Below, in pieces: positions 58,715 through 63,545 of a stretch of 64,000 nucleotides of DNA (positions are counted from its first letter, which is position 1; every line of letters starts with the position of its first letter). The notes beneath the pieces were generated by a model. The model searched no databases, was not told the origin of the DNA, and was given only the letters and a program-made list of their open reading frames with translations. Both the position numbers and the translations under genes were made by a program. The stretch is from the NCBI RefSeq assembly GCF_020614395.1, contig NZ_CP085324.1, positions 1,865,564 to 1,929,563 of the forward strand. Direction: 5' to 3'. The DNA is from Salarchaeum japonicum (lineage in GTDB: Archaea > Halobacteriota > Halobacteria > Halobacteriales > Halobacteriaceae).

Positions 58715-59269
58715 TTAGTCGTTTTCCGCGGGTGTGTCGGGGTCTTCGTCGTCGGTGAGGGCGGTTCGGAAGTTCCAGAGTTCGTTCAGGACGAGGAGGA
58801 CGGCGGGGACGACGACGAACAGGAGCATGCCGTTGCCGGTGTTGACGAACTGGACGAGGTAGCCGAAGTAGGGGATGTGGAAGCGGACGACGCCGACGAC
58901 GTTCTCGGCGGGGACGAGTTCGCCGTCGGGTTCCTCGTTCGCGTCGCCCTGCGTGCGGAAGTACCGGCCGTCGTCGCGTTCGACGACGTCGATGACGCGG
59001 TGGGTGACGAGGCCGGTGTCGGCGGTCGCGCCGGTCGCGTGGAAGGTGATGATGTCGCGTTCGTCGATGTCGTCCGGGGAGACGCCGTCGACGACGACCG
59101 CGTCGCCCGCGTGAATCGTCGGGGACATGCTGGAGGAGAGGACGACGTAGCTGTTGTCCGCGCCGGCGACCTGCGGAACCGCGAACACGACGGACGGAAC
59201 GACGACGGCGAGGAGGAGTGCGACTCCGGCGTACTGTGCGACTCTCGTGAGGGTGTCTCTGGTGAGCAT
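58715..59269 (-). CDS. sipW: signal peptidase I, SipW/ER type
   Basis: 184 residues. One N-terminal helix (about 13-35), catalytic YVVLSSSMSPTIHAGDAVVVDG (Ser near 48), GLVTHRVIDVV (His in place of the bacterial Lys, the ER/SipW type), FRTQGDANEEPDG box, and a second helix near the C-terminus (MLLFVVVPAVLLVLNELWNF). Located as last gene of an operon of exported proteins, four of which carry SipW-type leaders (YFSDTETS), its probable substrates, by analogy with Bacillus SipW-TasA. Active site would face outside. Confidence 0.9.
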   Translation of the reverse strand: MLTRDTLTRVAQYAGVALLLAVVVPSVVFAVPQVAGADNSYVVLSSSMSPTIHAGDAVVVDGVSPDDIDERDIITFHATGATADTGLVTHRVIDVVERDDGRYFRTQGDANEEPDGELVPAENVVGVVRFHIPYFGYLVQFVNTGNGMLLFVVVPAVLLVLNELWNFRTALTDDEDPDTPAEND

Positions 59270-60421
59270 CTATGTCGTGGACGTGAGAACGTACGAGACG
59301 TTCAGGGTGACCGAGTCGGTCTGGATGGCGTTTCCGGTGGCGGCGGGGACGCGCCACTGCGCGACGACGCGGACGGATTCGCCGGCGGCGAGCGGGTAGT
59401 CCGCGGCGAGAACGGTCTCGTCGAGGGTAGCGGCGGTGACGTAGGCGTCGGGGCCGCCGACGAGGTAGGTTCGCGCGCCGTCGTCGCGGACGAGCGCGAC
59501 GCGGAGTTCGAGCGCGGACGCGAGTTCGCCGCCGTTCCCGGGGCGGTCGACGCCGCGTTCGAGTTCGATGAGTCCGTTCTCCGCGGAGTCGACGCCGGTG
59601 AGAACCACGTCGAGCGCGCCGGCGGCGTCGCCGTCGTTGGTGACGACGGTTTCGGTGCGGCCGGACGCGCCGGGGGCGGCGTTCGAGACGCCGAGGACGC
59701 CGGGGTTCGAGACGGAGAGGTTCGGCGTGCTCGGGGTGGCGAGGTTCGCGACCGAGAACGCGTACGAGTCCATGGACTGCGCTTCGACGGTCGCGCCGTC
59801 GGCGGCGACGAACGCGGTCACGGTGACGTAGCCCTCGCGGAGGACGGTGGTGTCGTCGTTCGAGTTGTTGAACTCGTCCGCGCGCTCGCCCGAGGCGTAC
59901 GTGACGGGCGCGTCGAGGACGCGCGAGAGCGCGAGGGTGCCGGTGTCGTTCACGGCGCGCTCGACGGTTCGCTGGCGCGCCCACTCGCTTTCGGGCGTCC
60001 ACGTCGACACGACGACGGTGAGGGTTCGGGCGTCCGAGACGTTCCAGGAGAGCGTGCCGGTGAGTCGGCCGTCGAGGTGGACGACCTCGCCGAGCGTGTT
60101 CTCGACGTTCTCCGGGCTCTCCGCGGAGAACTGCACGCCGACCGACCCGGGCGTCGTCGTGGTCGTCGTAGTCGTCGCCCCGCTGGTCGTCGTAGTCGTC
60201 GTGGTTGTGGACGCCGGAGCGCCGGCGTTCGCGTCGCCGCCCGCGCTCCCGCTCCCGTTCTGCGTGGGCGTCACCGTCGGCGGCGCGGGCGCGTCCCCGT
60301 CACTCGCGTCGCTCGCGGCCGACTCGAACTGCGAGAGCCCGAACCCCGCCGCGGCGGCCGCGACGAGCAACACGGCGATGACGACGACGCGCCGCCGCGT
60401 CGCCTCCCGTGACGTGTTCAC
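59270..60421 (-). CDS. exported protein with Thr-rich linker, in SipW operon
   Basis: 383 residues from GTG 60421 (GTGA overlap). N-terminal basic head RREATRRR-like and helix, then a disordered stretch with two runs of eight Thr (about 70-90), a likely glycosylated spacer. The C-terminal ~150 residues match the TasA-like domain of its neighbours: VTNDGDAAGALDVVLTGVDSAENGLIELE and VAQWRVPAATGNAIQTDSVTLNVSYVLTS, close to the protein at 62961. The stop is adjacent to the sipW start, so probably matured by it. Cell-surface or matrix role inferred. Confidence 0.8.
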   Translation of the reverse strand: MNTSREATRRRVVVIAVLLVAAAAAGFGLSQFESAASDASDGDAPAPPTVTPTQNGSGSAGGDANAGAPASTTTTTTTTSGATTTTTTTTPGSVGVQFSAESPENVENTLGEVVHLDGRLTGTLSWNVSDARTLTVVVSTWTPESEWARQRTVERAVNDTGTLALSRVLDAPVTYASGERADEFNNSNDDTTVLREGYVTVTAFVAADGATVEAQSMDSYAFSVANLATPSTPNLSVSNPGVLGVSNAAPGASGRTETVVTNDGDAAGALDVVLTGVDSAENGLIELERGVDRPGNGGELASALELRVALVRDDGARTYLVGGPDAYVTAATLDETVLAADYPLAAGESVRVVAQWRVPAATGNAIQTDSVTLNVSYVLTSTT

Positions 60422-61401
60422 GACGCACCACCTCCGCCGTCGTCGTCATCGCGCTCGGTGTCGTCGCCGGATTGCTCACCACCACCGCCCCCGTCGTCTT
60501 CACTTCCTGCTCCACCGCCCGCCGTCGATTCCTCGCCGGGCGCGTCGTCGCTTTCCCCGTCGCTCTCGCCGGCGTCCGCATCCCCGGCGTCCGCGCCGCT
60601 TCCGTCGTTCTCCCCGCGGGTCTCTCCCCCGTCAGCGTTCCCGTCAGTCGAACCGTCGTCCGCGTCCTCGCCGGCGTTCGCCGACTCGTTGCCGGCGTCA
60701 CCGGACTTGGTGTCGTTCTCCAGAGACTCACTCTCGTTCTCCAACGGCGTCGAGTCGTTCTCCAGAGACTCGCTCTCGTTGAGTGTGTTCTCCGACGCGT
60801 TGCGCTCGCCGTCACTCTGCTTCGACGTGTTGCCCTTCGTCTCGTTCCGCCGGTCGGTCTCGTTCTCGACGACCCTCGACTCGTCCGAGTCCGTCTCCGT
60901 GAACCCGGAGTCGTCGCCGGTGTTCGTCCCTCCCACGGTCTGCGTTCCGGGCGATGCGTGTTGCACGTCGAGGGTGGTTGTGGCGCTCGCGGTGAACCCC
61001 GACTCGAATCTGACCGTGACCGTGACATCGTACGTACCGGAGCCGTTCACGGCGTCCACGAGGTCAGCACGGGAGAACTTCGCGTTCGAGGAATCGCACG
61101 CCTGATTGAGCGACGTAATCGTATCCCCCGTTTTCAGAACGCGGAGCGTTGTCTCCCCGCACCGAACGCTCGCGTCGCCCGAGATATCGAGATGAACCGT
61201 GAATTTGGCGTTACTCTTCGCGTTGAGTTTCTTCGGCGTGATTTTCTCGAGGGTGATGTCGCCGCCGGTCGCCGCGTCGATGCTCCCGGACGCGGTTTCG
61301 GTGTCGGAGAGGTAGCTCGCGGTCGTGCCGTACCCGCCCGTCATCGTGAGCGCGGACGCGACGACGAGCAACACGGCCACCTTGGACGCGAACCCCCTCA
61401 C
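60418..61401 (-). CDS. SipW-type exported protein with long acidic repeat tail
   Basis: 327 residues from GTG 61401. Leader MTGGYGTTASYLSDTETASGS is a SipW-dependent type signal. A beta-rich domain (about 45-150) has two Cys (RCGETTL, QACDSS) that could form a disulfide. The last 170 residues are extremely acidic and low-complexity, with Asn-Glu-Ser-Leu-Glu-Asn repeats and a Gly/Asp end (DDGGGGGEQSGDD). Such a tail may bind cations or extend from the cell surface. Overlaps the next gene by 4 bp. Confidence 0.8.
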   Translation of the reverse strand: MRGFASKVAVLLVVASALTMTGGYGTTASYLSDTETASGSIDAATGGDITLEKITPKKLNAKSNAKFTVHLDISGDASVRCGETTLRVLKTGDTITSLNQACDSSNAKFSRADLVDAVNGSGTYDVTVTVRFESGFTASATTTLDVQHASPGTQTVGGTNTGDDSGFTETDSDESRVVENETDRRNETKGNTSKQSDGERNASENTLNESESLENDSTPLENESESLENDTKSGDAGNESANAGEDADDGSTDGNADGGETRGENDGSGADAGDADAGESDGESDDAPGEESTAGGGAGSEDDGGGGGEQSGDDTERDDDDGGGGAS

Positions 61402-61495: not shown

Positions 61496-61541
61496 GACCC
61501 ACGGGCGGAATCGAACCGCCCGCACTGCACCAGCGTGGGCC
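61496..61541 (-). ncRNA. tRNA-like minihelix element 1
   Basis: On the minus strand: GGCCCAC, a 14-nt linker, a GGGCGG-TTCGATT-CCGCCC hairpin with a tRNA T-loop sequence, then GTGGGTC, which pairs with the first seven bases (one G-T pair). 46 nt, placed between the stop at 61556 and the next start at 61401. Confidence 0.55.
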
Positions 61542-61555
61542 AGAGTGTGCTCGTG

Positions 61556-62143
61556 TTACGGGCTTCCGCCGTCCTGGACGAGCTGCATGTACACGTCGAT
61601 GGTGACGGACTCGCCCTGCGCCTCGTTCTGGACGGACGTCGGGAGTTCGAGGCCGATGTCGCCGCTCACGGTGTCCCCGCCGGCGAGGGTTTGCCCCGTG
61701 TCGAGCCACGAGGTCGGTGCGTTTTCGAGGTCGACGGAGCCACTCCCTCCGCTGTCGAGGTTCCAGGTGAGGTCGAGGTCGTCTTCGAGGCCGGAGCCGT
61801 CGCTGTCGCCGTTCGTCGCGGTGCCGTCGCTTCCGCTGACGCCGAACTGGATGTAGAGGTCGCCGCTGACCGTTCCGTCGTTCCCGAGTTCCAGGCCGTA
61901 CGAGTCAGACCAGCCGGGCGCGATGTCGGCGACCGAGAGGCTCGCGCCGCCGATATCGGACGCGCCGTTGACCGTCAAGTCGAGCGTGCCCGCTCTGACA
62001 GTGTTGTCGGTGCTGGTCTCGGTGTCGCTGAAGTACGCCATCGTTCCCGCGCCGCCCGCGGCCCCTGCGGCTCCGAGCGTCAGGAGGCCGCCGAGCGCGC
62101 GACGCCGCGTGAGTTCGAACGTGCGTTGGTCGTCGTCTGACAT
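61556..62143 (-). CDS. TasA/CalY-like exported protein (SipW-type leader)
   Basis: 195 residues. Leader: FELTRRRALGGLLTLGAAGAAGGAGTMAYFSDTETSTDNTVRAG, with a Tat-like RRR head, hydrophobic core and the YFSDTETS SipW motif. Mature beta-sandwich: GTLDLTVNG, IAPGWSDSYGLELGNDGTVSGDLYIQFG, DTVSGDIGLELPTSVQNEAQGESVTIDVYMQLVQ. Similar to Bacillus TasA (biofilm fibre) and camelysin. Its first ~120 bp are nearly identical to those of the next gene upstream. Flanked on both sides by minihelix elements. Confidence 0.85.
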   Translation of the reverse strand: MSDDDQRTFELTRRRALGGLLTLGAAGAAGGAGTMAYFSDTETSTDNTVRAGTLDLTVNGASDIGGASLSVADIAPGWSDSYGLELGNDGTVSGDLYIQFGVSGSDGTATNGDSDGSGLEDDLDLTWNLDSGGSGSVDLENAPTSWLDTGQTLAGGDTVSGDIGLELPTSVQNEAQGESVTIDVYMQLVQDGGSP

Positions 62144-62167
62144 TGGTGTGCATCCCCGTGTGGGGAA

Positions 62168-62213
62168 GACCCACGGGCGGAGTCGAACCGCCCGCGATGC
62201 ACCGGCGTGGGTC
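62168..62213 (-). ncRNA. tRNA-like minihelix element 2
   Basis: Minus strand: GACCCAC, linker, GGGCGG-TTCGACT-CCGCCC hairpin, GTGGGTC. All pairs canonical. Same 46-nt length as element 1; the second base pair is A-T here and G-T in element 1. It starts 20 bp after the stop at 62233 and ends 25 bp before the next start at 62143. Confidence 0.58.
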
Positions 62214-62232: not shown

Positions 62233-62946
62233 CTAGAGGACGTCCTGTCCGGGTTCCTGTGCGAGCGCCATCGTGACCGTGATAGAGAGTTCGTCGCCCT
62301 GGAAATCGTCGTCGTCGAAGTCGCCCGTGTACTCCGGGTGTGTTTCCGTGCTGACGAATTTCAAGTCCATCGTGAGGTCGCGGGGAATGTTTGACTGGGG
62401 GGCGGGTTGGAGGTCGTCGAAAACCCCGTGTCGAACGACATCGTCGAGGTCGATGATGCCGTTGTCGTTCAGGTCTCCGTCGCCGTCGAGGTTGTCGAGG
62501 AGTTCTCCGCCGCCAGTTTCCTCCGGATAGCTGAGCGTGTCCACTTCGAACAAGCTCGCCATCCCGTCGGCGCTCTCGGGCATGGTGTCGCCGTCGTCGC
62601 TCCCGTTCCCGGATGCCTCGGTTCCGCTCGCCTCGATTTTGAGTTCGAGGTGATCTGCTGCGAGAGAGCCATCGTTTCGGGCGACGACGGTTCCGCCGAG
62701 CGTGTCGCCGGGCACGAGGTTTCCTACCGAGAACACGCCGGAGACGCCATCACCGTAGGTGCCGCCAGGCGTGCCGAGTTCCAGGTTCATCGTGCCCGCG
62801 CTGACAGTGTTGTCGGTGCTGGTCTCGGTGTCGCTGAAGTACGCCATCGTTCCCGCGCCGCTCGCCGCCCCTGCGGCTCCGAGCGTCAGGAGCCCGCCGA
62901 GCGCGCGACGCCGCGTGAGTTCGATTCCGTCTGTGTCGTCACTCAT
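62233..62946 (-). CDS. TasA-like exported protein with a dockerin/EF-hand-type loop
   Basis: 237 residues. Same leader type (IELTRRRALGGLLTLGAAG...YFSDTETSTDNTVSAG). The beta-rich mature part has FSVGNLVPGDTLGGTVVARNDGSLAADHLELKIEA. Residues 158-169 read DLNDNGIIDLDD, a calcium-loop pattern (Asp158, Asn160, Asn162, Asp166, Asp169) as in a single dockerin/EF-hand repeat. Possible Ca2+-dependent assembly of a surface fibre or matrix. Same strand as the operon. Confidence 0.83.
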   Translation of the reverse strand: MSDDTDGIELTRRRALGGLLTLGAAGAASGAGTMAYFSDTETSTDNTVSAGTMNLELGTPGGTYGDGVSGVFSVGNLVPGDTLGGTVVARNDGSLAADHLELKIEASGTEASGNGSDDGDTMPESADGMASLFEVDTLSYPEETGGGELLDNLDGDGDLNDNGIIDLDDVVRHGVFDDLQPAPQSNIPRDLTMDLKFVSTETHPEYTGDFDDDDFQGDELSITVTMALAQEPGQDVL

Positions 62947-62960
62947 CTGGAGTCACCGAG

Positions 62961-63545
62961 TTATTCGTCGGTCTCCTGATCGAGCGTGATGGTGGCGTTG
63001 ACGGTGGCGCTGTCCGACTGAATCTCGTTACCGGCGTCACTGACGATGCGCCACTCGACGGTGTACTCGACTTCCTCGCCCGCTTCGAGCGTCGCGAACT
63101 CGGAGTACGTGCCGAGGTCGGAGGCGTTCACCCAGCCGACGTTCGGAGCGTCGTCCGAGGTGAGCTTGACCTGGAGGTTCTCCGGTAGCTCGCTGTCGGA
63201 CGGACTGTTGTCGACTCCCTCTTCGGGTTCGACGATACCGTTCTCGGCGCTCGAAACGTCGAAGTCGATGCTGAGGGTGCCGTCGATGGTGCCGTTGTTG
63301 GAGACGTTGAGCGTCGTGCTACCGGAGTCACCGGGCGCGGCTTCACTGACCTCGACGAGCGTGACGTCGCTGTCGCCGTCGTCGAGCTGGAGGTCGAGCG
63401 TGCCTGCGCTGACGGTGTTGTCGGTGCTGGTCTCGGTGTCGCTGAAGTACGCCATCGTTCCCGCGCCCGCGCCTGCGGCCGCAAGACTGATGACGAGGAG
63501 CGACGCCAGTACTCTACGCCGTGTGAGTTTGATCGTGCGTGACAT
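62961..63545 (-). CDS. TasA-like exported protein, first gene of the SipW operon
   Basis: 194 residues. Leader KLTRRRVLASLLVISLAAAGAGAGTMAYFSDTETSTDNTVSAG, SipW type. Mature part: GTLDLQLDDGDSDVTLVEVSEAAPGDSGSTTLNVSNNGTIDGTLSIDFDVSSAENGIVEPEEG, then SDAGNEIQSDSATVNATITLDQETDE. The end is clearly related to the C-terminus of the protein at 59270. As first gene it may be the most abundant product. The gene is 14 bp from the next one. Confidence 0.85.
   Translation of the reverse strand: MSRTIKLTRRRVLASLLVISLAAAGAGAGTMAYFSDTETSTDNTVSAGTLDLQLDDGDSDVTLVEVSEAAPGDSGSTTLNVSNNGTIDGTLSIDFDVSSAENGIVEPEEGVDNSPSDSELPENLQVKLTSDDAPNVGWVNASDLGTYSEFATLEAGEEVEYTVEWRIVSDAGNEIQSDSATVNATITLDQETDE

Follow-up and report, generated by a model that had tools for sequence, protein, structure and literature searches.

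The window (the whole 64-kb stretch of DNA that was analysed) carries on its minus strand an operon of six genes, comprising, in order of transcription, three tasA-like genes of the camelysin/TasA family, two genes without a family match, and a gene for a SipW/archaeal signal peptidase. The products of the three tasA-like genes have SipW-dependent-type signal peptides, and their combination with a SipW-like signal peptidase marks the locus as a TasA/SipW-type fibre operon. Two short structured elements, E1 and E2, lie in spacers of this operon. Beginning at its upstream end, the features are:

62961 to 63545, minus strand, first tasA-like gene of the operon (PF12389, 1.8e-12; TIGR04088, 8.5e-9)
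62233 to 62946, minus strand, second tasA-like gene, upstream of E2 (PF12389, 2.4e-12; TIGR04088, 1.5e-8)
62168 to 62213, minus strand, E2, t-element with a 7-bp outer stem, linker and 6-bp T-arm
62153 to 62166, minus strand, second hairpin, TCCCC-ACAC-GGGGA, directly 3′ of E2 and 9 nt from the next ATG (62143)
61556 to 62143, minus strand, third tasA-like gene, between E2 and E1 (PF12389, 5.2e-8; TIGR04088, 1.6e-10)
61496 to 61541, minus strand, E1, t-element with a 7-bp outer stem, linker and 6-bp T-arm
60418 to 61401, minus strand, gene downstream of E1, 327 aa, no family match
59270 to 60421, minus strand, operon gene, 383 aa, no family match
58715 to 59269, minus strand, SipW/archaeal-type signal peptidase I (TIGR02228, 5.4e-31; NF046067, 2.3e-30; PF10502)

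E2 begins 19 nt past the stop codon of the second tasA-like gene and ends 24 nt ahead of the third start, whilst E1 begins 14 nt past the stop codon of the third; each element therefore follows a tasA-like gene, as had been proposed in the initial annotation of this DNA. The spacer between the first and second tasA-like genes is, at 14 nt, too short for an element and has none. Two neighbouring tasA-like genes also share a 143-nt N-terminal coding region (61976-62118 and 62782-62924) that is 94% identical, while the remainder has diverged, and the similarity of these signal-peptide regions is a pattern pointing to recent duplication or gene conversion. The SipW-dependent proteins begin with LSRRxxL, a twin-arginine-like motif (alignment A6), so export of the fibre subunits may run through Tat, ahead of SipW-type cleavage.

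Anatomy and folding of E1 and E2

Both elements consist of an acceptor-like stem stacked on a T-arm with a tRNA T-loop, and have a 13-nt linker containing a GG. Written as outer stem, linker, T-arm and outer stem, E1 (read from 61541 to 61496) is GGCCCAC-GCTGGTGCAGTGC-GGGCGG-TTCGATT-CCGCCC-GTGGGTC and E2 (read from 62213 to 62168) is GACCCAC-GCCGGTGCATCGC-GGGCGG-TTCGACT-CCGCCC-GTGGGTC. They are 87% identical over 46 nt and differ in the linker, in one base of the T-loop (TTCGATT or TTCGACT), and in one outer base at which pairing is kept (A-U to G-U). Sequence and folding agreed to the base with the coordinates, strand and fold first given for the two minihelices, including their equal length, different linkers and altered, yet still paired, outer base.

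As isolated 46-mers, E1 folds at -24.8 kcal/mol (z -2.2) and E2 at -23.3 kcal/mol (z -1.8). With 20-nt flanks added, the fold of E1 is unchanged and the minimum free energy structure of E2 is a competing one. A sequence-neutral descriptor, which fixes the tRNA T-loop and the stem lengths (7 + 6 bp) and nothing more, retrieved E1, E2 and no others from the 64-kb window, where 0.03 matches would be expected by chance, based upon first-order Markov-simulated windows. Allowing up to 3 mismatches, E1 and E2 are also the only copies in the 2.34-Mb genome. In contrast to E2, E1 is not followed by a second hairpin.

A tRNA, or tRNA-Sec, has the same acceptor stem and T-arm, but also a D-arm and an anticodon arm, neither of which is present in E1 or E2. 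ARAGORN found no tRNA at either element, there being only the 13-nt linker where these arms would be. The match to the Rfam tRNA-Sec family (RF01852) was sub-threshold (16.9 bits, against a cut-off of 47) and is not meaningful. We also rejected a resident tRNA as their source: tRNA-Gln has the same T-stem but a different outer stem, and no tRNA in the genome has the outer stem of E1 or E2. None of the six operon proteins gave an integrase match.

Distribution across haloarchaea

A covariance model trained on spacer elements alone (R1) had matches in 65 of the 194 haloarchaeal genomes searched (E ≤ 0.01 per genome), against ~2 expected by chance; like the second model described below (R2), it favours T-stems of the GGCGG/GACGG kind. 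In the fetched loci R1 gave 143 matches (E1, 64.7 bits; E2, 78.8 bits), ~128 of which are located beside TasA/SipW-type or Taf fimbrial genes (127 by script, plus E1, whose upstream gene was missed by the simple gene caller). The others comprise 4 before 5S rRNA and 11 elsewhere. The tasA-linked elements, a conserved RNA of 40-60 nt, come from 59 genomes in 7 families. When NCBIfam was run on one neighbour per locus (n=73), 41 were SipW-dependent signal proteins (TIGR04088), and the Taf fimbrial proteins were represented by TafA (15), TafC (12), TafE (12) and TafF (4), bearing in mind that these sets can overlap. An exact T-arm plus hairpin pattern, searched against 84,980 prokaryote species, matched in haloarchaea only, and 75 of 82 pattern matches adjoined a tasA-like gene as judged by a strict seed-only version of the neighbour-gene HMM, the iterated version being open to drift.

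Loci fetched by protein homology alone provide an unbiased sample, because they were chosen regardless of the element. Among their tasA-tasA spacers, the element is present in 35 of the 45 that measure 60-200 nt, in 3 of 13 longer than 200 nt, and in none of the 18 shorter than 60 nt. Hence, further copies at sipW/tasA loci, whose absence would have spoken against the initial annotation, are numerous, both by covariance model and in spacers retrieved through their proteins. PF12389 (camelysin/TasA) was not detected in the Haloferax volcanii control genome, and the mRNA class could easily have been overlooked in a survey of that species.

Some elements lie in other settings. Those at L092:4021-4084 and L111:4047-4111 are outside tasA loci, have a common alternative downstream hairpin (CTGGAGGCATTGTATCCAG), and precede homologous genes in blocks resembling plasmid or virus genes; they are possibly a separate, mobile-element class of t-element. 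Two strong t-elements, L229 (G017:C1:972452-972493) and L250 (G006:C10:25185-25226), are found a few to ~30 nt ahead of the starts of other genes, and a GGGCC/GGCCC hairpin comes after that of L229, as though this arrangement served elsewhere too. The t-elements at L112:4010-4064 and L138:7371-7430 are next to large beta-helix surface proteins with a TasA/DUF1102-like gene nearby, suggesting use in further surface-protein operons. At L117:4075-4133, upstream of a glycosyltransferase-like gene, another T-arm-like hairpin (GTGGGTGCGAGTCCCAC) comes after the t-element.

Covariation and conserved architecture

Across the 143 R1 matches, 93.6% of cells pair, and double changes occur in 11 of the 12 pairs. 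The covariation score of 0.312, compared with 0.157 for shuffled and ≤0.08 for slid alignments, comes from an alignment that was fitted to the structure and leans towards it. A swap test that used sequence only does not share this dependence on the alignment: in protein-fetched loci, outer-stem strands paired with their own partner in 59% of cases, with a swapped partner in 27%, and with a shuffled one in 18%. Exact stem changes seen in this test include GACTCGC/GCGAGTC, GATTCAC/GTGAATC and GGCCCGG/CCGGGCC. Thus, substitutions in relatives, which had been named as a possible source of broken pairing, preserve it with strong covariation.

The signal for full 7-bp pairing was weaker in pattern-fetched loci. 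We therefore dropped the complete outer stem as an absolute rule and regard its two outermost pairs, which are absent in ~30% of copies, as optional. Pairing falls from 0.68 to 0.30 past the seventh outer pair. Some copies have long linkers; of the 108 short ones, 85 carry a GG at a fixed place 2-3 bases past the outer stem, and this GG may take the part of the one in the D-loop, which contacts the T-loop. A CCA in the trailer blocks tRNase Z, and such a CCA is present in just 3 of 139 elements. The sequence prerequisites for cleavage by tRNase Z and/or RNase P (7-bp stem, T-loop, no CCA) are in place.

In most copies the outer stem is followed, after 0-2 nt, by a second hairpin, typically UCCCC-N3-6-GGGGA, with a one-base shift in register from copy to copy. 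Among 139 relatives of the element, 109 scored as having a hairpin of 4 bp or more, and any 4-bp hairpin follows the element in 81%, compared with 35% in shuffles. The next ATG is mostly 5-10 nt past the second hairpin, so that the leader following the discriminator has a median length of 21 nt. GGAG, GAGG or AGGA occurs near the start in 34 of 91 cases (16% in shuffles).

Relationship to the 5S rRNA t-element

According to PMC4326828 (citing Hoelzle 2008, 2012), haloarchaea carry a tRNA-like "t-element" immediately before 5S rRNA, and tRNase Z processes it. The same source describes t-elements in general as substrates for both RNase P and tRNase Z, which, when placed on plasmids in Haloferax, set flanking RNAs free and are used as a processing cassette (PMC4326828). 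The genome analysed here has a single 5S gene, immediately preceded by the t-element CACCGAC-GTTTGGCGTA-CCACGG-TTCGATT-CCGTGG-GTCGGCG. Like E1 and E2, it has a 7-bp outer stem, a short linker with GG, and a 6-bp T-arm with TTCGANT. E1, E2, this element and others align over their full length in 46 columns, with gaps confined to the linker (alignment A7). In the combined mRNA and 5S alignment 94% of cells are paired, compared with ≤58% in slid controls, and both-sided changes occur in 11 of 13 pairs.

We built R2 from this combined alignment (13 sequences, including E1, E2 and the organism's own 5S element). Searched against the 2.34-Mb genome, it gave three matches only, the 5S t-element, E1 (61.0 bits, E 8.9e-12) and E2 (61.8 bits, E 5.1e-12), with E-values ranging from 5e-12 to 2e-9; since all three were in the training set, what the search shows is the absence of any further match in 2.34 Mb. 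Of 28 R2-fetched loci in relatives, 19 are directly before 5S rRNA and 7 at tasA-type genes, where the downstream sequence was judged by eye if the pattern was too strict (e.g., L231). R1, which was trained on spacer elements only, also picks up 5S elements.

As judged from this homology-level match, E1 and E2 are t-elements, kin of the one upstream of 5S rRNA in the same organism. It was, consequently, too strong to call structured spacers of this form unknown, given that t-elements upstream of 5S rRNA had already been described. Unlike the 5S t-element, the spacer elements are flanked by protein-coding genes in fibre operons; they come after the stop codon of a tasA-like gene and are often followed by the CCCC/GGGG hairpin and a start codon rather than by 5S rRNA; their cleavage is a prediction.

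Discussion

The full-length match to the organism's own 5S t-element makes RNase P/tRNase Z sites the best-supported reading of E1 and E2. We put a probability of about 60% on the proposal that they are t-elements in mRNA spacers at which RNase P, tRNase Z or both cut the co-transcript. This upholds the processing role that the initial annotation had offered as one of several; the cleavage itself we infer, as we do the separation of messages and the control of stoichiometry. The operon would be transcribed as one long RNA, to be cut at each element on its 5′ side by RNase P, on its 3′ side by tRNase Z, or on both. This would separate the cistrons, the upstream message ending just past its own stop codon and most downstream pieces starting with the CCCC/GGGG hairpin and a leader of ~20 nt; tRNase Z cleavage at E2 would leave the hairpin at 62153-62166 as the 5′ end of the downstream mRNA. 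Neighbouring fibre subunits could then be made and degraded at different rates, and translational coupling would be blocked. The wider idea, that minimal tRNA mimics are the punctuation of fibre operons, with tRNA-maturation enzymes yielding single-gene messages headed by a 5′ hairpin, setting stoichiometry and tying fibres to tRNA processing, is in our estimation evenly balanced. Several features count against processing: E1 has no second hairpin, the two outermost pairs are optional, some linkers are long, and full 7-bp pairing is weaker in pattern-fetched loci; a hairpin only 0-2 nt from the outer stem could also hinder tRNase Z. Furthermore, other tRNA-like elements of Haloferax reportedly remained uncleaved in vitro in Hoelzle's 2012 work, and not every mimic is therefore a substrate.

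The main rival to processing is a purely translational role, in which the t-element and CCCC/GGGG hairpin shield each cistron from upstream ribosomes and mask, or present, the next ribosome-binding region without any cutting. The short distance from hairpin to ATG in most copies, the excess of Shine-Dalgarno-like motifs over shuffles, and the lack of elements in spacers under 60 nt would all fit such a role. However, it leaves unexplained the exact T-loop, the fixed GG, the fixed 7-bp stem and the match to the 5S t-element, and most copies are missing a clear Shine-Dalgarno core; we consider it unlikely. It is also quite improbable that the elements recruit a tRNA-binding protein, be it a synthetase, a regulator or a modification enzyme, through which a signal would lead to repression or stabilisation of the fibre mRNA, with no routine cleavage. 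A near-invariant T-loop and linker GG would suit recognition of the elbow by many such proteins, but there is no conserved anticodon-like feature, and the sibling element before 5S rRNA is accounted for by processing (PMC4326828).

We see very little likelihood that the elements are relics of tRNA-gene integration, as had also been suggested, or copies of a mobile tRNA-derived repeat. Although the T-arm stem is that of tRNA-Gln, the genome holds just two copies, both at the same spacer position, and this position recurs with compensatory changes in 59 genomes of 7 families; together with an outer stem that matches no resident tRNA, including tRNA-Gln, this leaves the relic reading unsupported. 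The similarity of E1 to E2, and of the N-terminal segments of two tasA genes, might suggest a chance structure in GC-rich spacers that was copied once by gene duplication. Such an origin, to which we assign almost no weight, is refuted by the expectation of 0.03 per window, the haloarchaeal spread and the covariation.

Processing at E1 and E2 would have parallels elsewhere. In bacteria, RNase P is described as cutting polycistronic mRNAs between their cistrons (Li and Altman 2003, as cited in PMC11143913). Our proposal likewise places a tRNA-processing enzyme in operon spacers. To our knowledge, the bacterial sites do not form a conserved tRNA-mimic family with a defined class of neighbouring gene, whereas the haloarchaeal elements are archaeal, conserved and covarying. 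In the "tRNA punctuation" of mitochondria, tRNA-like structures between coding genes serve as cutting sites; mitochondria punctuate with whole functional tRNAs, while the haloarchaeal elements are minimal mimics without decoding arms. The t-element as a kind is already known. In the literature open to our search, we found no report of the mRNA class, its link to TasA/SipW/Taf genes, or its composite with the second hairpin, and the lack of detectable PF12389 in the model host, Haloferax volcanii, may explain why the mRNA elements went unreported.

So far, t-elements have been treated as a peculiarity of 5S rRNA and a laboratory cassette. A conserved mRNA class in at least 7 haloarchaeal families would make tRNA punctuation a natural mechanism of archaeal gene expression, would show archaeal RNase P/tRNase Z acting on mRNA, and would give a concrete, testable answer to how subunit ratios are set in fibre operons. 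The elements would also provide haloarchaeal genetics with native, sequence-diverse processing signals.
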